DNA from: Deltaproteobacteria bacterium
Lineage (GTDB): Bacteria > SZUA-79 > Acidulodesulfobacterales > Acidulodesulfobacteraceae
NCBI GenBank assembly: GCA_023489335.1
Contig: JAMDCP010000001.1
Location: 1 to 64,000, forward strand
Length of the DNA stretch: 64,000 nucleotides
Reading direction: 5' to 3'
Positions 12-63,307 of this stretch are shown one piece after another; positions within the stretch are counted from its first letter, which is position 1; every line of letters starts with the position of its first letter. The notes beneath the pieces are model-generated. The model saw nothing but the letters and a program-made list of their open reading frames with translations. It was not told the DNA's origin and made no database searches. Both the position numbers and the translations under genes were made by a program.

Positions 12-917
12 TTATTTTTTTATTAATTTGATTAGCCTTTCGAGTTCTTCCGCGGAAGAAAAGCTAATTTCAATCTTTCCTTTTAGTTCATTTCCCTTAT
101 TTTTGTAGTCTATTCTTACTTTAGCTTGAAGTCTTTCAAAAAGCACGCCTTCATAGTTTTTAATCTGGGAAAATATCGAAAAATCCTTTTTGGGTTTATA
201 CTTCTGTTTTCCGGATTTAATTGCTTTAGCCGCACGCTCCGTCTCTCTTACGGTTAATTTTTCATTGGAAATTTTATTTAGAAGCATGTCTATCTCGCCG
301 CCTGAAAGACCGATAAGGTTCCTTGCATGGGACGGGGTAATTTTTCCATAGATAAGGTCATTTTTAATTTCGTCCGGCAAAGAAAGCATCCTTATCATAT
401 TTGTAATCGTGGCCCTATCTTTGCCGACTTTGACCGAAAGTTCTTCGTGAGTTAATTTATATTCTTCTATTAATCTCACATAGCAGTTTGCTTCTTCGAT
501 AACATTTAAATCCTGCCTCTGGATATTTTCGATAAGGGCAATTTCAAGGGCTAAAACGCCCGAAATGTCTTTGATGAGCGCGGGAACCGTATTTAATCTT
601 AGCTCTTTAGCGGCTCTATATCTCCTTTCACCCGCGATTAAATCGTAGCCGTCTCCGTTTTTAGATTTAGAGACTATCAAAGGTTGAATGATGCCGTTTT
701 CTTTAATAGAGTTTTTTAATTCGGCGAGCTTATCCTCGTCGAAATACTGCCTTGGCTGATAAATTCCGGTATTTATCTTATCTATTTCGATTTCAAAGAC
801 TGAAAGCTTTCCGTCCCTGTCCGCATGGATGCCGTCCTGCGCATAGGCATCCGTTAAAAGCGCGCCTAACCCCCTACCTAATACGACCCTTTTTGACGAT
901 TTTTCTTTTTCTTCCAT
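12..917 (-). CDS. parB: Chromosome-partitioning protein ParB/Spo0J
   Basis: GRGLGALL N-terminus, QPRQYFDE.KLAELKNSIKENGIIQPLIV, AGERRYRAAKELRL; adjacent to parA. Confidence 0.96.
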   Translation of the reverse strand: MEEKEKSSKRVVLGRGLGALLTDAYAQDGIHADRDGKLSVFEIEIDKINTGIYQPRQYFDEDKLAELKNSIKENGIIQPLIVSKSKNGDGYDLIAGERRYRAAKELRLNTVPALIKDISGVLALEIALIENIQRQDLNVIEEANCYVRLIEEYKLTHEELSVKVGKDRATITNMIRMLSLPDEIKNDLIYGKITPSHARNLIGLSGGEIDMLLNKISNEKLTVRETERAAKAIKSGKQKYKPKKDFSIFSQIKNYEGVLFERLQAKVRIDYKNKGNELKGKIEISFSSAEELERLIKLIKK

Positions 918-949: not shown

Positions 950-1717
950 TTATGCAACCTTGGACAAAAATTCCTTAGTTAATTCGATATAATAAATTGC
1001 GCCCTTGGAATTTATATCGTATAATATGATAGGCTTCCCAAAACTTGAACTTTCCGGAAGCTTGACATTCCTCGGTATGACATTTTCATATATCTTTTGC
1101 CCAAAATATTTTTTAACCTCGCTAACTATCTGGTTTGTAAGGTTTGCCCTTCCGTCAAACATCGTAAATAAAACCCCCTCGATTTGCAAATCCTTGTTGA
1201 GCCGCTGGTTAACAAGCCTAATTGTCTGCATTAGCCTTGATATTCCTTCCAGCGAATAATACTCGCACTGCATAGGGATTAAGACGCTGTTGGAAGCGGT
1301 TAATGCGTTTATCGTAAGCAGCCCTAAAGACGGCGGGGTATCGATAAAAATATAATCATAATCGCCGCTTATTTTATCGATAATATTTCTTTTAAGAAAA
1401 TATTCCCTTTCATCCATGCCTACTAATTCTACCTCTATGCCCGCAAGGTCGGAGGTCGATGGAATTATATAAAGATTTTTCAATTGCGTTGCGTATATGG
1501 CATCAGCAGCCGTAGATTCACCTGTGAGGCATTCATAAACAGTCGGCTTTGACTTATCAACCGTAATATTTAACCCGCTTGTCGCATTAGCCTGGGGATC
1601 GGCATCGATTAAGAGGATTTTCTTCTCGTACGCCGAAAGACAGGCGGCAATATTGATTGCCGTGGTGGTTTTTCCTACCCCGCCCTTTTGATTGGAAATG
1701 CAGATTACCTTTGCCAT
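950..1717 (-). CDS. parA: ParA/Soj-family ATPase
   Basis: Walker A NQKGGVGKTTTAINIA, LLIDADPQANATSGL, IFIDTPPSLGLLTINAL. Confidence 0.96.
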   Translation of the reverse strand: MAKVICISNQKGGVGKTTTAINIAACLSAYEKKILLIDADPQANATSGLNITVDKSKPTVYECLTGESTAADAIYATQLKNLYIIPSTSDLAGIEVELVGMDEREYFLKRNIIDKISGDYDYIFIDTPPSLGLLTINALTASNSVLIPMQCEYYSLEGISRLMQTIRLVNQRLNKDLQIEGVLFTMFDGRANLTNQIVSEVKKYFGQKIYENVIPRNVKLPESSSFGKPIILYDINSKGAIYYIELTKEFLSKVA

Positions 1718-1832: not shown

Positions 1833-1848
1833 TGTTTCATGTGAAACA
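1833..1848. promoter_or_regulatory. parS-like site TGTTTCATGTGAAACA
   Basis: One base from the canonical parS TGTTTCACGTGAAACA; upstream of parA. Confidence 0.8.
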
Positions 1849-11172: not shown

Positions 11173-11188
11173 TGTTTCACATGAAACA
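11173..11188. promoter_or_regulatory. parS-like site TGTTTCACATGAAACA
   Basis: Reverse complement of the 16-mer at 1833; intergenic after hldD. Confidence 0.8.
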
Positions 11189-12960: not shown

Positions 12961-13425
12961 ATGAAATGGCTGTTTTTAATCTTTGCTTCAATCCTTATTT
13001 TAAGCTTTAGCTCATTTCCCGCATTTGCAATGCCAAATGCAAATTATGGCGGTTTTTACAAAAACTATAAGAAACCCGTAAAGATAGTTATTGGCGTCAA
13101 TCTGCCGGGACAACAATTTGGGATTTCCATGTTAAATGTGGAACATGCAATAAATTATATTAAATCGATTGGCGGAAAATATTCTATTCAAGTAGTTTTC
13201 TACGGACCGATTGTAAAATTGCTAATTACTTCGCATAAGATGTGTAATAATACGATTAAGACGCTTAGAAGCGAAGGCGTGAGTTTCAGGGTTAGCAAAA
13301 ATGCCTTAATGTTAAATCATGTGAACTTTAAAAATATACCTCGCTTTGTAAAAATAATCCCTAGTGGAACATTGCAGGTTTTTAAAAAAATAAACGAGGG
13401 TTATACCTATCTAATTGCGATGTGA
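12961..13425 (+). CDS. Secreted DsrE/DsrF-like family protein
   Basis: Signal peptide; IQVVFYGPIVKLL...TIKTLRSEGVSFRVSKNAL...IIPSGTLQVFKKINEGYTYLIA. Confidence 0.7.
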   Translation: MKWLFLIFASILILSFSSFPAFAMPNANYGGFYKNYKKPVKIVIGVNLPGQQFGISMLNVEHAINYIKSIGGKYSIQVVFYGPIVKLLITSHKMCNNTIKTLRSEGVSFRVSKNALMLNHVNFKNIPRFVKIIPSGTLQVFKKINEGYTYLIAM

Positions 13426-19838: not shown

Positions 19839-22154
19839 ATGTTTATGAAACTTTCAAAGAATTTGGAATGTGAAGAATGTAAGGTTTCCGGGACGGCGGA
19901 CGGCGGATTGATAAACGGCGCCGCATATACCGCCGCCGTTTATACCTGTCCCATGCACCCCGAGGTGAGGCAGGCAGGGCCCGGAAACTGCCCCATTTGC
20001 GGAATGGCCCTCGAACCTGTTGTTCCGGTTGCCGCCGCCGCAAAAATGGAGTGGGTATGCCCCATGCATCCGCAGATTATTCGCAATGCGCCAGGGAATT
20101 GCCCTATTTGCGGGATGGCTCTCGAACCGCGCTCCGGTTCCCCCGAAAAAGAAAAGAATACCGAACTTCTAAATATGACAAGGCGTTTTTGGGTCAGTCT
20201 CATCCTAACGGTTCCGCTTCTATTCATTGCCATGAGTGTTTATGTTCCTGCCATATCTACCTTAAGCCTTCTTCATCCAAAAATAGCGGAATGGCTGGAA
20301 CTTATACTTGCTACGCCAGTGGTTTTATGGGGAGGATGGCCGTTTTTCGTCAGAGGGGTCAATTCCGTAAAAAACCGTAGCCTGAATATGTTCACGCTGA
20401 TAAGCTTAGGTGTCGGAGTTGCATATTTATATAGCCTTACGGCTGCGCTTATGCCGTGGATATTTCCCGCATCTTTTCGGAATAAAGGCGGGCAGGTGGA
20501 CACATATTTTGAAGCCGCCGCTTTCATCGTAACGCTTGTGCTTTTGGGTCAGATGCTTGAACTTAAGGCTCGCAGCAAAACCGGAGCGGCAATTAAAGCG
20601 CTTCTCGGTCTGTCTCCTAAAACGGCAAGGCTTATAAAGGGAGAAAAAGAGGAGGATATCCCTCTTGATGAGGTTAATCCCGGCGACTTGCTTCGCGTTC
20701 GTCCAGGGGAAAAAATCCCTGTTGACGGCATAGTGATAGAGGGGGTAAGTTCGGTTGACGAATCGATGATTACGGGGGAATCTATCCCCGTAGAAAAACA
20801 TAAAGGAGACAAAATAATAGGCGCAACTATAAATGGTACGGGGTCGCTTATAATGACGGCTGAAAAAGTAGGCGCCGATACCCTGCTTTTTAGAATCGTT
20901 CAAATGGTTGCCGAAGCTCAAAGGAGCCGCGCTCCTATCCAGAAACTCGTTGATATCGTCGCCGCTTACTTTGTTCAGATAGTGGTCGCCGTTGCGGTTT
21001 TAACCTTTATTATCTGGTCGTTAATCGGCCCGGAACCGAGAATGGCGCTTGCGCTTGTCAATGCCGTTGCCGTGCTGATAATTGCATGCCCCTGCGCCCT
21101 TGGGCTTGCGACACCTATGTCTATAATGGTAGCTACGGGAAAGGGGGCTACGGAGGGCGTGCTTTTCAAAAATGCCGAAGCGATAGAGATTATGAAAAAA
21201 GTGGATACCCTTGTGGTGGATAAGACTGGAACACTCACGGTAGGCAAGCCTAAACTTGCTTCCGTGGTTCCGGCGGAGGGATTCGACGAAAATAAAATAT
21301 TATCTTTTGCCGCCGGCATAGAAAGGGGCAGCGAACATCCGCTTGCGGCGGCTATAGTTTCGGGAGCCGACGAAAGAGGCGTAAAACCAGGCAAAACGGA
21401 TTCTTTCGAATCATTGACCGGAAAAGGTGTTACGGGAAGCATAGAAGGGCGCCGTATAGCCCTCGGCAACCGTATGCTTCTTGACGACCTTAAGATAGAC
21501 CATAAAAGCCTTGACTTAAAAGCTAAAGATTTGCGAACGGAAGGAATGATAGTTATGTTTGTTGCGGTAGACGGGCAAACTGCGGGATTAGTGGCGGTAG
21601 CCGACCCCATAAAAGATACGACCTCTGCGGCAATAAACCAGCTCCATGAAGAAGGCATCCGAATAGTTATGCTTACGGGGGATAACAAAATAACCGCCGA
21701 AGCCGTTTCTAAAAAGCTCGGCATCGACGAAGTAATCAGCGAAGTGCTGCCGGATCAGAAGGCTTTGATGGTAAAGAAATTACAGGATGAAGGAAGAATA
21801 GTCGCAATGGCGGGAGACGGAGTAAACGACGCGCCCGCTCTTGCGCAGGCTCATGTCGGTATAGCTATGGGAACCGGCACCGATGTTGCAATGGAAAGCG
21901 CCGGCGTAACCTTAGTTAAAGGCGACTTAAGAGGGATAGTGCGGGCAAGGCGCTTAAGCAAGTTAACGATGCGCAACATCAAACAGAACCTTTTTTTTGC
22001 TTTTATTTATAATACGGCGGGCATTCCGATTGCGGCGGGCATTCTTTATCCTTTTTTTGGAATATTGCTCAGTCCTGCCATTGCCGCTGCGGCAATGAGC
22101 TTTAGTTCCGTATCGGTGGTAAGCAACGCTTTAAGGCTGCGAAGGGTTAAATAA
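19839..22154 (+). CDS. Copper-translocating P-type ATPase with tandem CPMHP...CPICGM metal-binding domains
   Basis: [17 protein letters not shown], two [22 protein letters not shown]-type repeats. Confidence 0.95.
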
Positions 22155-22228: not shown

Positions 22229-23257
22229 TTATGAAATCCTTAAAACTTTGGCGCCGAAAATCTTTTTATTTTTTATCTCATTTAAAGCAATGTTTGCTTC
22301 GTCTAAATTAAAAACCTGAATTTCAGGTTTAATATTATAGCCGGACGCAATCTTCAGAACCTCTTCGATGTCGTTAAAGGTTACATTCGCAACAGATTTT
22401 ATCTCTTTTTCCATCCATAAATCTCTTGAATAATCTATATTTATAAGATAGTCTTTATCAAAATCTTCTTTTCGTATGTTGTTTATAACAAGCCGTCCGT
22501 TAGGTTTTAAATTTTTCAAAACTTCCACGACGGGCATCCAGACTGGCGTCGTATCTATGACCGCGTTTAACTTGTGGGCGGGAGACTCCGAAATATCGCC
22601 GCTCCAGTATGCGCCAAGCTCCATAGCAAGTTTTCTTTCGTTTTCCGCCCTTGCAAAGACAAATAGCTTTAAATTAGGATAAATTGCTTTTGCGAGCTTT
22701 AAAACTAAATGATTCGAAGCTCCAAATCCTAAAAAACCTAAATTCATTTTATCGTTAATGTTTGTTAATTTTAAAGCCCTGTACCCAACTGCTCCGGCGC
22801 AAAGCAAAGGCGAAGCTTCTTCATCGGAAAAATTTTCTGGAATTAACGCTGCATAATTTTCGTTTATCTTTGTATATTCGGCATAACCGCCGTCCACATC
22901 TTTGCCCGTTGCCGTAAAATTTGGGCATAAATTTTCAAAACCGCTTTTACAGTAAACGCAATTGCCGCAGGCGGAATTAATCCAGCCTATACCGACCCTG
23001 TCGCCTTTCTTTAATTTTTTTACTTCGCTTCCGGTTTCGATTACCCTGCCGACTATCTGATGTCCCGGAATGACGGGTAATTTAATAGGCTTAATTCTGC
23101 CTTCAATTTCGTCTAATTCGGTATGGCATACGGCACAGGAATTTACTTTAATTAAAACCTCGTTTTTGCAGATTTCGGGTATTTTAACATCTATATGCGA
23201 TAAAGGATTTTTATTTATTTTTAAATCGGATATTTCCGTTAATGCCATGGACTTCAT
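22229..23257 (-). CDS. Zinc-dependent alcohol dehydrogenase
   Basis: CAVCHTELDEIEG, GHQIVGRVIETG, CGNCVYCKSGFENLC. Confidence 0.9.
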   Translation of the reverse strand: MKSMALTEISDLKINKNPLSHIDVKIPEICKNEVLIKVNSCAVCHTELDEIEGRIKPIKLPVIPGHQIVGRVIETGSEVKKLKKGDRVGIGWINSACGNCVYCKSGFENLCPNFTATGKDVDGGYAEYTKINENYAALIPENFSDEEASPLLCAGAVGYRALKLTNINDKMNLGFLGFGASNHLVLKLAKAIYPNLKLFVFARAENERKLAMELGAYWSGDISESPAHKLNAVIDTTPVWMPVVEVLKNLKPNGRLVINNIRKEDFDKDYLINIDYSRDLWMEKEIKSVANVTFNDIEEVLKIASGYNIKPEIQVFNLDEANIALNEIKNKKIFGAKVLRIS

Positions 23258-24181: not shown

Positions 24182-24436
24182 TTATTTTTTCATTTCTTCC
24201 ACGTCTCTTTTTATCACTTTCCACCACCAGTTAAAAACTTCAACTTTGTCGCTTAATTCATTGACTTTACGCTCAATATAAGTTCCGTTCTCATAATTCA
24301 TAAAAAGCTTTTTGACATCTCCATTATAACTATATATTTCTTCCAGATAATCTTTAATATTTTCTATTTCTATTATCAAACTTTGAATGGTATCTTGAAA
24401 CTCCTCATTGTTATCCATTATTTTACTTCCCCCCAT
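24182..24436 (-). CDS. Hypothetical small coiled-coil protein
   Basis: 84-aa ORF rich in Glu/Lys. Confidence 0.5.
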   Translation of the reverse strand: MGGSKIMDNNEEFQDTIQSLIIEIENIKDYLEEIYSYNGDVKKLFMNYENGTYIERKVNELSDKVEVFNWWWKVIKRDVEEMKK

Positions 24437-24479: not shown

Positions 24480-24773
24480 TCAACAACATTCGACAGGCGA
24501 TGAACTGCCGCAATCGCACGAAGGCGGACCGCCGGTGAGCATGCCGTTTATTATACCCGAAGCACATCCCATGCCGGAATTTACGGTAATCGCACCATAT
24601 TTGCAATTAAGGGCGCAGGCACCGCATTCCATACACAAATTTTTGTCTTTAACCTCAACTTTTTTATTTTTCAGGAAAAATACTTCGTGAGGACATACAT
24701 CGATGCATATTGCGCAATTTGCGCATTTTTCTGGGAAAAACCTGAGACTAGATACATTCCGAAGATATTTCAT
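24480..24773 (-). CDS. hgcB: Mercury methylation ferredoxin HgcB
   Basis: CANCAICIDVCP and CMECGACALNC [4Fe-4S] motifs; C-terminal PVECC; 4-nt overlap with hgcA. Confidence 0.92.
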   Translation of the reverse strand: MKYLRNVSSLRFFPEKCANCAICIDVCPHEVFFLKNKKVEVKDKNLCMECGACALNCKYGAITVNSGMGCASGIINGMLTGGPPSCDCGSSSPVECC

Positions 24774-25837
24774 ATAACCCCCGATTTGTGAAGTTTGTAA
24801 ATTATCAATAAAACAATCGATGCCGCAACCGATATTAAATAAACGGGCAAAGCTATTTTTAATTCTTTTTTTACACCGGACATATTTGTAAATGTGGTCG
24901 AGCCCGTAAATTGCAATGCCAAATATGAACTTGCCATCGGGAAGAAAAGAATATCAGCCATAAAAATTATAATATTTTTTTGCGCCGATAAATCTAAAAA
25001 CCTTAATACAAACACAACTAATAAAATCCCGATTATCCAGCCCTTGATGGCAAAAGAACGAAACGGAATAAAAGGGAGAAGAACAGGGGCAATAAATGCT
25101 CCGCCTATAATGCTTGACAATCCGAGCAGCAAAAAAGGCGCTCCATATGACCAGGCGCTTTTAAATAAAATACCGGAGGGTTGAAGGCCGAAAAATAAAA
25201 GAATGATTATGCCAAAAATAAAAAATTTTTTAATTGCGGGGATTATTTCCATGGGCGTAAGAACAAGCCTGTCTATTACCGAAAATCCAATTTTTCTCAT
25301 TTCAGGAGTTTTTCGTTTGCCTGCCTTCAAATAATCTTTAATATCTTTTGCATAAACAGGACCAAAATAAACCTTGAAGCCAGTCTGCCTAAATACGGCA
25401 TCGGCATCAACTCCAACCGCACCCAGCTGTGGAACGATTATCCGACCGTGATTTAAAATACTGCTAAGCTCAACCTTATTTATGCGCTTAACAAGCTCTT
25501 TGGTACCGAATGTTCCTTTACCGGCGGCGCACCAGACATTGATTCCTTTTGTATCTAATACCAGTATCCATACATCCAGGCCGCTTAATTCTTTCCTCAG
25601 AATATCAAAGCTCAACTTATAATTAGCGCTTACAAAAACATCGGAATTTTCATCAGGCTTGCCTAAAGAGTAAAGCCCGGGCTCAACCTTATATTTCATC
25701 CTGAATGAATTGCTTACTCTGCATTTTACCCTGCCAAAGTAATCCGCCGGCGTCCATTTAGGTGATGCTTTATAAACGGAGGTCAATTGTTCCGGCTTTT
25801 TGCAACAATCTATAATATTTATATTTTCACTAAACAT
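24770..25837 (-). CDS. hgcA: Mercury methylation corrinoid protein HgcA
   Basis: Cap-helix motif NVWCAAGKGTFGT; N-terminal corrinoid domain followed by several TM helices; adjacent HgcB. Confidence 0.94.
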   Translation of the reverse strand: MFSENINIIDCCKKPEQLTSVYKASPKWTPADYFGRVKCRVSNSFRMKYKVEPGLYSLGKPDENSDVFVSANYKLSFDILRKELSGLDVWILVLDTKGINVWCAAGKGTFGTKELVKRINKVELSSILNHGRIIVPQLGAVGVDADAVFRQTGFKVYFGPVYAKDIKDYLKAGKRKTPEMRKIGFSVIDRLVLTPMEIIPAIKKFFIFGIIILLFFGLQPSGILFKSAWSYGAPFLLLGLSSIIGGAFIAPVLLPFIPFRSFAIKGWIIGILLVVFVLRFLDLSAQKNIIIFMADILFFPMASSYLALQFTGSTTFTNMSGVKKELKIALPVYLISVAASIVLLIIYKLHKSGVI

Positions 25838-25893
25838 TATTTCTATATAATACCATATAATACCATTGTATTCTTTTATATTTGAAGTTATTA

Positions 25894-25909
25894 TGTTTCA
25901 CATGAAACA
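25894..25909. promoter_or_regulatory. parS-like site TGTTTCACATGAAACA in the hgcA-arsC gap
   Basis: Identical to the 16-mers at 11173 and 46165. Confidence 0.8.
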
Positions 25910-25920
25910 TAATAACTTAT

Positions 25921-26352
25921 TTATTCAACGATAGATTTAAAAAAATCTTTTACCCTGATTTCAATATCGTCCCTTATGCTTCTAAAAAAATTTAGCCTAT
26001 CATCTTCGCTCCCTTCGGCGTTGGCGGGGTCTAACAAATCCCAGTGCAAATTTTTAGTTTTCGCCTCCACATAAGGACAGTTATCTTTGGCATCCCCGCA
26101 TAAAGTAATTATGTAATCCGCATTTGTTAAATCGATATCGTCTAAGGATTTTGATTTATGCTTTGTTAAGTCTATGCCTTTTTCAGCCATAACCCTGATA
26201 GATAAAGGATTAATCGGTTTGGGAGAAACGCCTGCGCTTAATATTAATAAATCCTTATCCTTATAAGTTTTTTCTTTCAAGTAATTGGCAAACCCTTCGG
26301 CCATTTGACTCCTTGCGGAATTTCCCGTGCATAAAAATATGATTTTTATCAT
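25921..26352 (-). CDS. arsC: Arsenate reductase ArsC (LMW-PTP fold)
   Basis: IIFLCTGNSARSQMAEGFA; CGDAKDNCP. Confidence 0.93.
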   Translation of the reverse strand: MIKIIFLCTGNSARSQMAEGFANYLKEKTYKDKDLLILSAGVSPKPINPLSIRVMAEKGIDLTKHKSKSLDDIDLTNADYIITLCGDAKDNCPYVEAKTKNLHWDLLDPANAEGSEDDRLNFFRSIRDDIEIRVKDFFKSIVE

Positions 26353-26404
26353 TTTTTCTTTTCACCTTATTTATAACAGATTAGCACAATTAATCGATAA
26401 AAAA

Positions 26405-28216
26405 CTATATTACCATGGAATATAACTTATCTAACGAATCTGGATTATTTATCTCATTTATACTTTTAGGTATAAAAAATGCGGGGATATTAAATTTCTC
26501 TTTTATGGAAAAAAGATAGGTATCCTGCAATCTTTTCATATTTTTAAAAAAGGAATCCTTATAAATGTCTGTAAGTATATAATTAACAACCAGAAAAGAT
26601 ACATTTATTCCGGCTAATTTTAAATCGTCGTAAGCCCTTTTAGCTTCTTCGATAGGACTAAATTCGGGATAAAGGCATAATGAAAACATTGTCTTATTGC
26701 AATCTTTAAGAATATTAACAAATCTTTCCAATTCCAAATCCTTTTTATTCATTTTTGCATATTCCAAACTGATGTATAAAAGCCTTAATGCATGGCCTGT
26801 GGGAGCGGCATCAAAAATAATTATATCAAAATCTTTATATCCAACAAAATAACTGCTAAATTTTTTAAAAACGGCAACCTCTTCCGTACATGGAGAATTC
26901 AGCTCTTCTTCTAAAACTTTAAAAGAATCTTCATTATTTGAATATGATTTAAAGTATTCAACCGTCTTTGCTTTGTATTCGTCTAACGCCTGAGTAGGCG
27001 AGATTTTTGCCAAATAAAGTTCATAATTTCCGTCTAACTTTTTCGGAATTTCATTTGAAATATCGATCCCCATTACCCTGGCTGTATGATATGAAGAATC
27101 GGCGGATATAACCAAAGTTTTTTTACCATGCGAGGCAAAATATTTTCCAAATAAAAGCGAAGATGTTGTTTTTCCCGTTCCGCCTTTACCGGTAAAAAAG
27201 AAATAAAAAGGCGTTTTTTGCGGGGTTATGGTTTTAATAAATTTATTGTTTTCCTCTTTGATATTTTCTAAGTTATCATTGAAATTATAAACATTTAACG
27301 CTGCGCCCTCACGCTTTGCGTTCGTGATTTCGCTGCGCTCAATTCCATTGGATTTATCGTTTAGGGCATTACCTGCAAAAAAATCAATTAAGGAACTCAA
27401 ACCCTTGACCTCACCGCCTTTTAAGTAAATCTTCGATGTTTTATATCCCGACGAATCAACCTGTTTTAAAATTTCTCTTTGAAGGGAAACGGCTTCTTTA
27501 AAATCATTATTGGCGGACAATTCATCCGGCAAAACGGCATTAACTATAATTTCTATATTTGTTATGCCAAGTTTTTTAATCTCATCGGCGGATAATTTAA
27601 TCTCGTTAAAATCTAGCTCCTGGGGATGCATTACAAAAATAAATGTCGTTAAATCAGTGTCTTTTAAAGCATTCAGGGCAGTCCTGTATTGGTCGTAATA
27701 TCCGTCTAAGTTTACGACGGGACCCATGCAAGTCATGCCAGCCCCTTTTTTAACTTCGTCTAAATATGTCGTCCACTCGAGGGGAAGTTCGAGCAATCTT
27801 AGCGTATGAGCGGACGGCGCGGTATCGAAGATTATATTGTCATAACCCTTTTTTAAAAAAAATTCCGTAAAACTATTAAAAAAAGCAATCTCGGAGACAC
27901 AGGGTGACCTGAACTCCTCTTCAATCATTTCGATAACTTCCTGCGGCAAAAGATTTTCGTTGTCCCCCAGAACCCTTTTTTTATACTTTAAAATCTCGGT
28001 ATCCGAATCCATCTCTACCGCATAAAGATTGTTTAATCCTTCTATTTTTTTTTCCGTTCCGCCGATATTTTGTTCAAAAACATCGCCGATATTGGATGCC
28101 GGATCCGTCGAGACAATTAATGTCTTTTCGCCGTTAAGCGAAAGTTTAACGGCGAAAGCGGAAGCAATAGTCGTCTTGCCGACCCCGCCTTTTCCATGAA
28201 AAAAATAATAATGCAT
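26405..28216 (-). CDS. arsA: Two-domain arsenical pump ATPase ArsA
   Basis: Two P-loops: HGKGGVGKTTIA and TGKGGTGKTTSS; DTAPSAHTLRLLELP and DAAPTGHALRLLYIS. Confidence 0.95.
   Translation of the reverse strand: MHYYFFHGKGGVGKTTIASAFAVKLSLNGEKTLIVSTDPASNIGDVFEQNIGGTEKKIEGLNNLYAVEMDSDTEILKYKKRVLGDNENLLPQEVIEMIEEEFRSPCVSEIAFFNSFTEFFLKKGYDNIIFDTAPSAHTLRLLELPLEWTTYLDEVKKGAGMTCMGPVVNLDGYYDQYRTALNALKDTDLTTFIFVMHPQELDFNEIKLSADEIKKLGITNIEIIVNAVLPDELSANNDFKEAVSLQREILKQVDSSGYKTSKIYLKGGEVKGLSSLIDFFAGNALNDKSNGIERSEITNAKREGAALNVYNFNDNLENIKEENNKFIKTITPQKTPFYFFFTGKGGTGKTTSSLLFGKYFASHGKKTLVISADSSYHTARVMGIDISNEIPKKLDGNYELYLAKISPTQALDEYKAKTVEYFKSYSNNEDSFKVLEEELNSPCTEEVAVFKKFSSYFVGYKDFDIIIFDAAPTGHALRLLYISLEYAKMNKKDLELERFVNILKDCNKTMFSLCLYPEFSPIEEAKRAYDDLKLAGINVSFLVVNYILTDIYKDSFFKNMKRLQDTYLFSIKEKFNIPAFFIPKSINEINNPDSLDKLYSMVI
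27299..27340. repeat. Repeat-like insert in the arsA interdomain linker
   Basis: CGCTGCGC direct repeats flank a TCACG..CGTGA hairpin; encodes ERSEITNAKREGAA in frame. Confidence 0.5.
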
Positions 28217-28258
28217 TTTCGCCCCGCTTATTTTAACGAACTCAGGTGAAATAAAATA

Positions 28259-28585
28259 TTATGATGCCGCCTTCGAAATATAATCATAAATCTCTTTTGT
28301 ATCTGGATACCTTCCGTATGTTATAACCTTGCCGTTTAAAATACAAACCGGCAAAGCCGCTTTACCTTCATTTTTTATCAAGAGCTGGACGGACGGATTT
28401 TCAAGAAATTTCTTTGGTTCCTGCGAAATTGTCTGCCTTTTGATTTCAACATATTCGCCAAAATCCGATTTTAATTTATCGATTAAATCCCTAATCTTTA
28501 TAAGTTTTTCATCCGGATTTGGACCGCAAACCCCTGTTGAACAACACAAAGCAGGATCATAAATCTCAAAAACAATCTTATTCAT
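28259..28585 (-). CDS. arsD: Arsenic metallochaperone ArsD
   Basis: EIYDPALCCSTGVCGPNPD. Confidence 0.94.
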   Translation of the reverse strand: MNKIVFEIYDPALCCSTGVCGPNPDEKLIKIRDLIDKLKSDFGEYVEIKRQTISQEPKKFLENPSVQLLIKNEGKAALPVCILNGKVITYGRYPDTKEIYDYISKAAS

Positions 28586-28625
28586 CTTAACCCTCCTATT
28601 TTTTAAAAAATATAATTATCCGGAT

Positions 28626-28958
28626 TTAAGTAATGCAGATTTTGTCGTCGCAATTACTGTTTTTAACTTCTCTTATATTTTTAATTCCAAGCAACTTATC
28701 ATAAATATCTTCAATTTCTTTAAATGCTTCTTTATTGAGGGAATAATAAACCCACCTTCCCGCTTTCCTCCCGTTAATTAACCCTGCCTTTTTTAATGCG
28801 GATAAATGATGCGAAACCAGCGTTTGATCTAAGCCAAGTTCTTTGTATATGACACAAACGCACCTCTCCCCTTTCATAAGCGTCAAAATAATTCTGAATT
28901 TATTATCGTCGCCGAGCAGTTTAAAAAATTTTTTGAGTATCGATTCGTCTTTTGCCAT
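28626..28958 (-). CDS. arsR: ArsR-family metalloregulator
   Basis: GERCVCVIYKELGLDQTLVSHHLSALKKAGLINGRKAGRWVYYSL. Confidence 0.94.
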   Translation of the reverse strand: MAKDESILKKFFKLLGDDNKFRIILTLMKGERCVCVIYKELGLDQTLVSHHLSALKKAGLINGRKAGRWVYYSLNKEAFKEIEDIYDKLLGIKNIREVKNSNCDDKICIT

Positions 28959-29002
28959 ACATTTTTGATAAATTAAAAATCAAAGAATAATGAAAAATTT
29001 TA

Positions 29003-29026
29003 ACATATGAATTATAATTCATATGT
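29003..29026. promoter_or_regulatory. Perfect 24-bp palindrome ACATATGAATTATAATTCATATGT, candidate ArsR operator
   Basis: About 45 bp upstream of the arsR start codon; ATATGAA..TTCATAT pattern of ArsR/SmtB sites. Confidence 0.75.
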
Positions 29027-29162
29027 TTATGATATAACTTTTTATTTAAAATTGTCAATAATTTTATTATTTTTTTTATTTTTATGATATATTGCTAAAT
29101 AATAATAATTTAAATATAACTTTCCATGATTACCAAATTAATTAAAGTGGGGGGTATGCGAA

Positions 29163-46164: not shown

Positions 46165-46180
46165 TGTTTCACATGAAACA
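46165..46180. promoter_or_regulatory. parS-like site TGTTTCACATGAAACA
   Basis: 16-mer shared with 11173 and 25894; just downstream of mnmG. Confidence 0.8.
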
Positions 46181-57860: not shown

Positions 57861-59273
57861 ATGGATTTCGTAGAACCTTTATTGGAAGAATTAAGGAAAG
57901 AGATAGGCAGTAATAATTTTAATATCTGGTTTATTCCTGCTAATATCACATTAAATCAAAATACCATAACCTTTTCCGTTCCCAATAAATTCTTTAAAGA
58001 TATTATAAATGAATCCTATAGGGATATTATTCTAAATATTTGGAAAAAACTAAACAATAAAGATGAGTTAAATTTTATTTACAATATAAGCGACGAAAAC
58101 GCCTACGATATTAAAAATTATTATCAAAACTTAATTAAAACGGACGATAATAAAATTAACAGGGAAGAAAACAATAGCGGTTTTAACGGGGTATCTTTAG
58201 CGGCGCAGACGGATACAGAAAATAAACCTGTAAATAAAAAAAATCTTAAAAAGAATTACATAAATCTAAACCCCAAATACACTTTTGAAAATTTCGTTAT
58301 AGGCTCGGGAAATCAGTTTGCGCATGCGGCCAGTTTTGCCGTCGCCAATCTCCCGGGGCAAACATATAATCCAATGTTCATCTATAGCGATGTCGGATTA
58401 GGCAAAACACATTTGCTCAATGCTATCGCTAATAAAATAATTAAAGAAAAGGATTTAAATATATGCCTCGTTTCGTCGGAAAAATTTACAAATGAAATGA
58501 TTACTTCCATAAGAGACGATAAGATGGTAGAATTCAGGAATAAATATAGAAATGTCGATGTGCTTTTAATAGACGATATACAATTTATTGCCGGCAAAGA
58601 ACGCACCCAGGAGGAGTTTTTTTATACCTTTAATTCGTTATACGAAAATCAGAAACAGATTGTCGTTTCAAGCGATAAAATTCCAAGGGATATTATAAGC
58701 CTCGAAGAAAGAATAAGGTCGAGATTTGAATGGGGATTAATAGCGGATATTCAACCGCCGGATTTTGAAACCAGGATCGCTATCCTTAAAAAAAAGGCTT
58801 TTCTTAATAATATAGATTTTCCGGACGATGTTTTAAATCTTTTGGCGGATAAAATTAGTTCCAATATAAGAGAATTAGAGGGGGCAATGATTAAAATCGC
58901 CGCTTTTTCGTCGTTTACAGGAAAACCTATTTCAATAGACCTTGCGAGAGAGGCTACTTTAAATATTTTAAAGGAGGAAGAAAAGGTTATTACGGCAGAG
59001 GAGGTAATAAAAGTCGTCTGTAATTATTTTAATATTAAAATTTGTGATATTAAATCAAATAAAAAATTAAAGGAATTTGTCGTCCCCAGACAATTAGCGA
59101 TGTATCTAATAAGAAACCACACTAATTTATCGTTTCCCGAAATAGGCAACAAATTTGGCGGCAAGGATCATTCATCTATTGTTTATGCGGTTAATAAAGT
59201 TAAAAAAATGTTAAAGAATAACGATGAATTAGAAAAAACTTTAGATACTATTATTAAAATAATTAAAAAATAG
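57861..59273 (+). CDS. dnaA: Chromosomal replication initiator DnaA
   Basis: NPKYTFENFVIGSGNQFAHAA, GLGKTHLLNAI, LLIDDIQFIAGKERTQEEFFYTFN, GGKDHSSIVYA. Confidence 0.98.
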   Translation: MDFVEPLLEELRKEIGSNNFNIWFIPANITLNQNTITFSVPNKFFKDIINESYRDIILNIWKKLNNKDELNFIYNISDENAYDIKNYYQNLIKTDDNKINREENNSGFNGVSLAAQTDTENKPVNKKNLKKNYINLNPKYTFENFVIGSGNQFAHAASFAVANLPGQTYNPMFIYSDVGLGKTHLLNAIANKIIKEKDLNICLVSSEKFTNEMITSIRDDKMVEFRNKYRNVDVLLIDDIQFIAGKERTQEEFFYTFNSLYENQKQIVVSSDKIPRDIISLEERIRSRFEWGLIADIQPPDFETRIAILKKKAFLNNIDFPDDVLNLLADKISSNIRELEGAMIKIAAFSSFTGKPISIDLAREATLNILKEEEKVITAEEVIKVVCNYFNIKICDIKSNKKLKEFVVPRQLAMYLIRNHTNLSFPEIGNKFGGKDHSSIVYAVNKVKKMLKNNDELEKTLDTIIKIIKK

Positions 59274-59525
59274 TTTATGTAAAACCGATAAAATATTGTT
59301 GATAAAAATGTTTAATTCATGTTTGTATTGTGTTTAAAAAAAATAATTTAAAAAAATTAAACAATGTTTTTTTGGGAAAGGTATGAAAATTCTACATGTT
59401 TTTAAACAATATATTATTGAATAACTTTAAATGGTTATAGAGTTATAAACAGGTTTAAGCGCCACTATTACTATTAAGTTTTTAAAATATTATTAAATTA
59501 ATAATAATAATAGGAAAAGTTAAAA

Positions 59526-60788
59526 ATGTTAAATTTTAAAATTAAAAAGGATAGTTTTCTGAATTGCTTATTTATAGTTCAAGGGGCGGCTGAAAGAAAA
59601 GGAACCCTGCCTATTCTTTCCAATCTTTTAATAGAAAATATAGGAAAGGATTCTATTAAAATAAGCGCAACCGACCTGGAAATTAGCATTATAACATATT
59701 GCAAAGCGGAAATTATCGAGGAAGGAAAGGTTGCCGTAAATTCAAAAAAAATTTACAGTATCGTAAGGGAATTTCCTGAAAGTAAAAATAAAGACGATAT
59801 TTTCATAAATTTTAAAGAAAATGATTCAGGAATTGTTACTATCAGCTATAAAAAAACGGTTTTTAAATTAACAACCGTGCCAGCCATAGATTATCCGACG
59901 ATTGTCGATTTTAAATTGGAAGACGGCTTTAATATTGATTTTAAAATATTAAAGAAGCTTATTAATAATGTTATATTTTCTACGGCGGCGAACGAAGAGA
60001 CAAAGAGAAATCTTACGGGCGTATATTTTGTTTTGGTTGATTTAAACGGGCAGGATTATCTCAGATTAGTTGCAACCGACGGGCATAGATTGGCTTTAGC
60101 TCAAGCGGAAGTCGTTTATAGCAGTAAAAAAAATGAAGGTATTTATGATTTGTTAAAAAATGGAGTAATAATACCTAAAAAGGTTTTAGCCGAGATTTTA
60201 AAGTTAGATAAATCTGATTCGGTTAATATTTCAATAAATTCAAATAATGTATTTTTTCATTTTAACGGAAAACTTACCACTCCGCTCCCGGACGAAGGTC
60301 CTGCAAAACCTCTTAAAGGCTTGGATAGTTCAAATATTCAGGCAAGGGGCGCCGAATTTATATCAAGGTTAATCGAAGGGAAATTCCCCGATTATCAAAC
60401 CGTAATTCCCAAAGATAATTATAAGACATCGATAATAGATACTAAGAATTTTTTTAATTCAATTAAAAGGGTTTCTTTGTTAGCCGAGGAAAAAAGCCAT
60501 TCCATAGAATTAAGTTTTAGCGATAATAATTTATTAATTAAAACGGTAAATACAAGCGTTGGAGAGGCAAGCGACGAATTAGATATTAAGTATAGCGGCG
60601 AACCTATAAGTATTAAATTAAATTCAAGGTATATTATGGATTTTATCTTAAACATTGCAGAGGAAAATATAAAAGTTAAGTTTAACACGATTTACACCCC
60701 GTTTGTCATCGAACCTTTCACGGATGATAGTAAAAGCGGTAATAAAATGATGGAAATTATAGGCGTGTTTATGCCTATGAGATATTAA
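59526..60788 (+). CDS. dnaN: DNA polymerase III beta subunit
   Basis: ILSNLLIEN...ISATDLEISI; LRLVATDGHRLA; C-terminal MMEIIGVFMPMRY. Confidence 0.96.
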   Translation: MLNFKIKKDSFLNCLFIVQGAAERKGTLPILSNLLIENIGKDSIKISATDLEISIITYCKAEIIEEGKVAVNSKKIYSIVREFPESKNKDDIFINFKENDSGIVTISYKKTVFKLTTVPAIDYPTIVDFKLEDGFNIDFKILKKLINNVIFSTAANEETKRNLTGVYFVLVDLNGQDYLRLVATDGHRLALAQAEVVYSSKKNEGIYDLLKNGVIIPKKVLAEILKLDKSDSVNISINSNNVFFHFNGKLTTPLPDEGPAKPLKGLDSSNIQARGAEFISRLIEGKFPDYQTVIPKDNYKTSIIDTKNFFNSIKRVSLLAEEKSHSIELSFSDNNLLIKTVNTSVGEASDELDIKYSGEPISIKLNSRYIMDFILNIAEENIKVKFNTIYTPFVIEPFTDDSKSGNKMMEIIGVFMPMRY

Positions 60789-60805
60789 TATATTAAATGA
60801 GGTAA

Positions 60806-63307
<2,502 letters not shown>

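Follow-up and report, generated by a model that had tools for sequence, protein, structure and literature searches.

Mercury-methylation genes hgcAB at the distal end of a probable ArsR-controlled arsenic operon that contains an origin-region parS site

The stretch of 64,000 nucleotides analysed here, referred to as the window, represents the first part of contig JAMDCP010000001.1 from a deltaproteobacterial genome assembly (GCA_023489335.1) that is assigned to the lineage SZUA-79, Acidulodesulfobacterales, Acidulodesulfobacteraceae. It contains the mercury-methylation genes hgcA and hgcB in a run of six genes that begins with the arsenic resistance genes arsR, arsD, arsA and arsC. A preliminary description of the window, made from the sequence alone, had given the place (28958-24480), the order arsR-arsD-arsA-arsC-hgcA-hgcB and the minus-strand orientation of these genes, all of which proved to be correct. 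The genes and the predicted regulatory features of the locus are as follows:

29029..29058, minus strand: predicted promoter of the ars-hgcAB genes, TTGACA, 18 nt, TATCAT (11/12 match to the consensus)
29002..29027, no strand: predicted ArsR operator, perfect 13+13 palindrome AACATATGAATTATAATTCATATGTT
28626..28958, minus strand: arsR, metalloregulator of the ArsR/SmtB family (NF033788, 86.9 bits, cut-off 55; PF01022)
28259..28585, minus strand: arsD, arsenite metallochaperone (NF033727, 101.8 bits, cut-off 90)
26405..28216, minus strand: arsA, two-domain anion pump ATPase (PF02374, 372 bits)
25921..26352, minus strand: arsC, arsenate reductase of the thioredoxin (pI258) type (TIGR02691, 151.4 bits)
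25885..25918, no strand: palindrome between arsC and hgcA, 16-nt arms, TG centre
25894..25909, minus strand: parS TGTTTCATGTGAAACA in the arsC-hgcA gap
24770..25837, minus strand: hgcA, mercury-methylation corrinoid protein (NF040863, 396.5 bits, cut-off 275)
24480..24773, minus strand: hgcB, dicluster ferredoxin (NF040864, 113.3 bits, cut-off 99)
24182..24436, minus strand: conserved small protein of 84 amino acids, candidate last gene of the operon, 43 nt past hgcB

The intergenic distances on this single strand, in the order from arsR to hgcB, are 40, 42, 52, 83 and -4 nt, the last value reflecting the genuine overlap of hgcA and hgcB at positions 24770-24773. The deduced ArsR protein contains the CVC motif (ERCVCVIYKEL) and ArsD the motif CCSTGVCG. 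The score of ArsC is below the curated TIGR02691 cut-off of 174.3 bits, and the protein has kept the CTGNSAR loop and the catalytic cysteines in C-x6-C arrangement. The 84-amino-acid protein was matched to no family; homologues are encoded downstream of hgcAB in the related genome G011 and next to a parS site in G028 (handles beginning with G, L and C denote genomes, loci and contigs).

Both methylation proteins exceeded the curated cut-offs in the profile search that had been proposed as a check. The NVWCAAGK cap-helix motif, by which HgcA had been recognized, is real and provides the cobalt-ligating cysteine C103 that is invariant across eight aligned sequences; additionally, the membrane domain of HgcA is present. 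The objection that the protein might be a paralogue from the corrinoid iron-sulphur protein (CFeSP) did not hold with respect to the equivalog scores and an HgcA tree calculated without a CFeSP outgroup. Window HgcA reached 69 bits with the model of the gamma subunit of acetyl-CoA decarbonylase/synthase (cut-off 306), and the HgcA proteins of the phylum formed a clade in the tree (99% support in the Shimodaira-Hasegawa-like approximate likelihood ratio test, SH-aLRT) that adjoins HgcA of Nitrospirota and Myxococcota. HgcB comprises two 4Fe-4S motifs (C17-C27 and C47-C57), an inner cysteine C70 and the C-terminal pair C96-C97. The residues C103 of HgcA and C70 and C96-C97 of HgcB are the counterparts of those listed as crucial in PMC11588087, namely C93 of HgcA and C73, C94 and C95 of HgcB. 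With the catalytic residues present, HgcA and HgcB would be expected to methylate Hg(II) through the known corrinoid/ferredoxin chemistry. A search for HgcA on viral contigs yielded no match.

The core of the predicted ArsR operator, ATATGAATTATAATTCATAT, is found in one exact copy only within the window, and the same core or near copies of it are located upstream of arsR in G008, G011, G019, G020 and G024, where TTGACA and an A+T-rich -10 region also recur ahead of the gene. A diverged form of the operator precedes arsR in G014, and a similar palindrome is present upstream of the arsR gene of G028 that does not precede hgcAB. At the sequence level, the locus contains an ArsR-type regulator with a putative promoter-proximal palindromic operator, as is characteristic of ArsR-controlled ars operons; no second site close to the arsR operator was detected before hgcA. 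In eight genomes (the window genome, G008, G011, G014, G019, G020, G022 and G024), hgcA is preceded by an arsR gene of the same orientation; these include G019 and G022, in which arsR alone precedes hgcAB and of which G019 retains the conserved promoter and operator. An uncoupling terminator had been named as evidence that would separate hgcAB from the ars genes. The scan of the gaps found no intrinsic terminator facing hgcA, and the palindrome between arsC and hgcA is ruled out in this function by the lack of a U-tract on the hgcA side and by its core, which equals parS.

This 34-nt palindrome with the parS site is absent from the preliminary description. The gap between arsC and hgcA contains the sequence AAGTTATTATGTTTCATGTGAAACATAATAACTT, the core of which is present in the 1.8 Mb genome in exactly four copies (positions 1833, 11173, 25894 and 46165). 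All four copies are located on the window contig at a distance of at most 46 kb from parAB, and the reversed control pattern yielded zero copies in the genome. The same contig carries dnaA, dnaN and gyrB at 57861-63307 and parA/parB at 12-1717. The partition genes and the other parS sites are the following:

12..917, minus strand: parB, predicted to encode the parS-binding protein (PF02195, 116 bits; PF17762, 104 bits)
950..1717, minus strand: parA (PF13614, 229 bits)
1833..1848, plus strand: parS adjoining parAB
11173..11188, minus strand: parS
46165..46180, minus strand: parS beside mnmG

The window genome thus shows the features by which a ParB-parS system is recognized, that is a near-consensus 16-mer in few copies that cluster at the origin together with parAB. 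Relatives contain between 0 and 5 parS copies per genome, and a parS site adjoins hgcA in 9 of the 11 family genomes that carry this gene. In G000 (the window genome), G008, G011, G012, G014, G019, G020 and G024, the site precedes the start of hgcA by 35-56 nt, and a copy with one mismatch is present beside the hgcA start in G022; the G024 site overlaps the 3' end of arsC, which is spaced from hgcA by just 22 nt. No parS was found next to hgcA in G028 or in the contig-edge fragment of G027. Since the left neighbour of the parS-hgcA pair can be arsC, arsA, arsR or a hydrogenase subunit gene, parS and hgcA have stayed together while other neighbours have changed. Apart from hgcB, no neighbour of hgcA is as constant in the phylum as parS. 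Outside the phylum, parS adjoined hgcA in none of 74 loci, which rules out a general link between the two across bacteria. Two of these outside loci contain partition elements at some distance that may be due to chance near an origin: a parS that follows hgcB at a distance of about 0.5 kb (L096, position 4141) and parAB about 2 kb from hgcB (L107, 4049-5748). Many parS sites of the family, among them those at 1833, 11173 and 46165 of the window, are embedded in palindromes with arms extended by up to 15 nt, which is above chance. Longer arms as a peculiarity of the hgcA site are unsupported, as other parS sites of the family are alike (p = 0.11). A literature search, with subscription papers mostly outside its reach, retrieved no paper joining hgcA with parS.

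A single ArsR-controlled operon provides the best reading of the locus, given the conservation of the predicted promoter and operator among relatives and the lack of a terminator facing hgcA; the short gaps on one strand and the genomes in which arsR alone precedes hgcAB likewise favour co-transcription and control by arsenic. With a probability of roughly 0.7, as estimated from the sequence data, hgcAB represents the distal part of one ArsR-controlled arsenic operon with an origin-region parS site in the arsC-hgcA gap. Both the conservation of the site and the CVC motif suggest that ArsR would bind the operator palindrome and repress transcription from the arsR promoter; As(III) or possibly another thiophilic metal would release ArsR, giving rise to one transcript from arsR to hgcB. 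ArsC would then reduce arsenate, ArsD and ArsA would handle trivalent arsenic and HgcA/HgcB would methylate Hg(II). The ParB protein of the chromosome should bind parS in the gap. This parS would be a site of the origin region that is surrounded by the operon and has travelled along with the hgcAB block. Its primary role is probably in segregation, and it may in addition weaken transcription nearby.

Several observations weigh against the single operon. The 83-nt gap contains a promoter-like sequence (25886-25857) with a 9/12 match, TTCAAA-18-TATTAT and an extended -10 element, and hgcAB can occur apart from the ars genes, being located behind a hydrogenase cluster in G012 and alone in G028. 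These two genomes show that ars control of hgcAB is not obligatory and that the tie between hgcA and ars put forward previously is not universal among the relatives. It is conceivable from these data, albeit somewhat unlikely, that hgcAB is transcribed from a separate promoter located between parS and the hgcA start, with the ars operon as a mere neighbour; the number of promoter-like matches in this A+T-rich region is about that expected by chance (30 found versus 27 expected), the distance from parS to the start codon is only about 36 nt in most relatives, and arsR is placed upstream of hgcA in eight genomes. Moreover, a strong hairpin is predicted for the RNA of the palindrome, and it could divide the arsC message from that of hgcAB. 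The alternative that the palindrome acts in the mRNA as a hairpin or attenuator, keeping the output of hgcAB below that of ars, with the resemblance to parS being secondary, would agree with the long stem, a predicted folding energy of -20.4 kcal/mol for the gap and arms that exceed parS at 8/8 exact hgcA sites. We consider it improbable, as the arm extension is not significantly above that of the other parS sites in the family (the p value given above), the hgcA side is devoid of a U-tract, and the core is exactly the parS that occurs elsewhere at just three sites, each of them near parAB.

The missing arsenite efflux pump, an expected component of an ars operon, also counts against the assignment. 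The preliminary description had correctly noted that ArsB and Acr3 are absent from the window; its conclusion that the pump must be elsewhere could not be sustained, since neither the ArsB (PF02040) nor the Acr3 (TIGR00832) profile detected a match in the assembly, which comprises 1.80 Mb and is 92% complete. An ArsB match was obtained in 16 of the 18 family genomes searched, one being a fragment, and arsB is located between arsA and arsC in G008, G020 and G024. Loss of the pump in the window lineage is likely, with assembly incompleteness as the other possibility.

With respect to the gap parS, ParB might truly regulate hgcAB and thereby link methylation to the segregation or replication state of the origin region. 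Pseudomonas aeruginosa provides a precedent, as its ParB represses promoters and genes adjoining the intergenic sites parS3 and parS4 (PMC5521831), and by analogy an effect on hgcAB is possible; the adjacency of parS and hgcA in 9/11 genomes despite differing left neighbours points in the same direction. The arrangement may instead go back to a single ancient chance placement that was inherited and moved by recombination. In G028, the matching ars region reads arsR-arsB-Usp-parS (parS at L131:10670; Usp, universal stress protein), and the genes that come next are homologous to 24182-24436 and 22229-23257, with no hgcAB between; hgcAB of this genome is located on a different contig. Considering also the 0/74 outcome outside the phylum, regulation by ParB appears unlikely.

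Movement of the locus between genera is indicated by G008. Its ParA and ParB proteins are 93-94% identical to those of the window (91-94% for ParA, ParB and MnmG together), and its HgcA shows 73% identity to window HgcA and 90-93% to the proteins of the genus-3 genomes G011, G020 and G024. The same reversal of kinship was observed for ArsR, ArsD, ArsA, ArsC and HgcB, and the approximately unbiased (AU) test rejected a clade of window and G008 HgcA (p = 0.0002). Additionally, the parS on the hgcA side of G008 is CG-centred like most sites of the other genus, and its three other parS sites are TG-centred. The simplest reading of these sequence comparisons is that the ars-parS-hgcAB block would have been exchanged between genera as a unit.

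Contig C20 of the window genome encodes MerA (469.8 bits, cut-off 454.45) in a cluster (L181, 2487-5638) with genes for a MerR-family regulator, a MerT-like protein and a heavy-metal-associated (HMA) domain protein of the MerP type; genes for mercury reduction and methylation therefore coexist in this genome. MerA was above the cut-off in 10/10 family genomes searched, and genes for an HMA (MerP-like) and a MerT-like protein with the CCWGP motif are located directly downstream of hgcAB in G011 (L022:5701-6611). A heavy-metal P-type ATPase, copper-type by sequence, is encoded at 19839-22154 of the window, and its G008 homologue is located beside the mer genes (L182).

A linkage of ArsD with hgcAB was found in three phyla: that of the window, Chloroflexota and Bacteroidota. 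In two Chloroflexota genomes of the Dehalococcoidia type, the gene after hgcA encodes an HgcB-ArsD fusion. The fusion of L129 (10973-11806) scored 99.3 bits for HgcB and 100.3 bits for ArsD, with acr3 at 13284, and that of L127 (2773-3402) is truncated where its contig ends. The CC-x4-C motif of ArsD has been retained in full by both the fusion and window ArsD. The Bacteroidota locus L102 contains arsD-arsA-arsC-arsC-arsC ahead of hgcAB and an acr3-like gene, as judged by sequence, after hgcB. A search for further fusions in 394 genomes of the class returned a match over the full length in the starting genome only, and a literature search on hgcB and ArsD, again with subscription papers mostly outside reach, retrieved only PMC10349881. 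Because of the linkage in three phyla, including a fusion protein, the data suggest ArsD as a possible metal-delivery partner of HgcB. The more far-reaching proposal, in which ArsD would feed Hg(II)/As(III) to HgcB, the ars genes would serve methylation rather than efflux and a ParB-loaded parS would tie hgcA expression to the origin region, is doubtful.

These findings bear on the route of Hg(II) to HgcAB, on the native role of hgcAB and on its induction, and they provide testable handles in arsenic as inducer, ArsD as chaperone and ParB as modulator. If arsenic induces the methylation genes, arsenic-rich mine drainage could increase methylmercury output.

The link between ars genes and hgcAB has already been published, and the window locus is a fuller version of it; new relative to the preliminary description are the parS site in the arsC-hgcA gap and the ArsD-hgcAB linkage in three phyla. 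Arsenic-responsive control of hgcAB by ArsR in Pseudodesulfovibrio mercurii ND132 has been reported, as cited in PMC10349881. According to PMC10349881 and PMC7438021, ND132 and related Desulfovibrio share with the window an ArsR-type regulator upstream of hgcAB, which is co-transcribed there, with arsenic-responsive transcription reported; the window locus differs from the arsR-hgcAB arrangement of ND132 by arsD, arsA and arsC (and arsB in relatives) between arsR and hgcA and by the gap parS. Arsenic genes (acr3/arsC/arsM) beside hgcAB were reported in diverse metagenome-assembled genomes (McDaniel et al. 2020, PMC7438021). Outside the phylum, 60 hgcA loci had 1.5 kb or more of upstream sequence; within 1.5 kb upstream, 14 of these contained an ArsR-like gene and 6 an ArsC-like gene, and an ArsC-like gene is located just upstream of hgcA in the unrelated loci L084, L106 and L110. 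In comparison with the genomes of McDaniel et al., with which it shares the arsenic genes adjoining hgcAB, the window locus is distinguished by an ArsD/ArsA set on one strand, a conserved operator and a genome in which no pump was found. The hgcAB genes of SZUA-79 reported from acid mine drainage sediments (PMC9948709) likely belong to the same lineage; the available part of that report makes no mention of their gene neighbourhood, of parS or of an operator. With chromosomal parABS systems, the window shares ParA, ParB and few near-consensus parS sites near dnaA and parAB, and it differs from them in that one parS is located within a metal-resistance operon, directly before hgcA.

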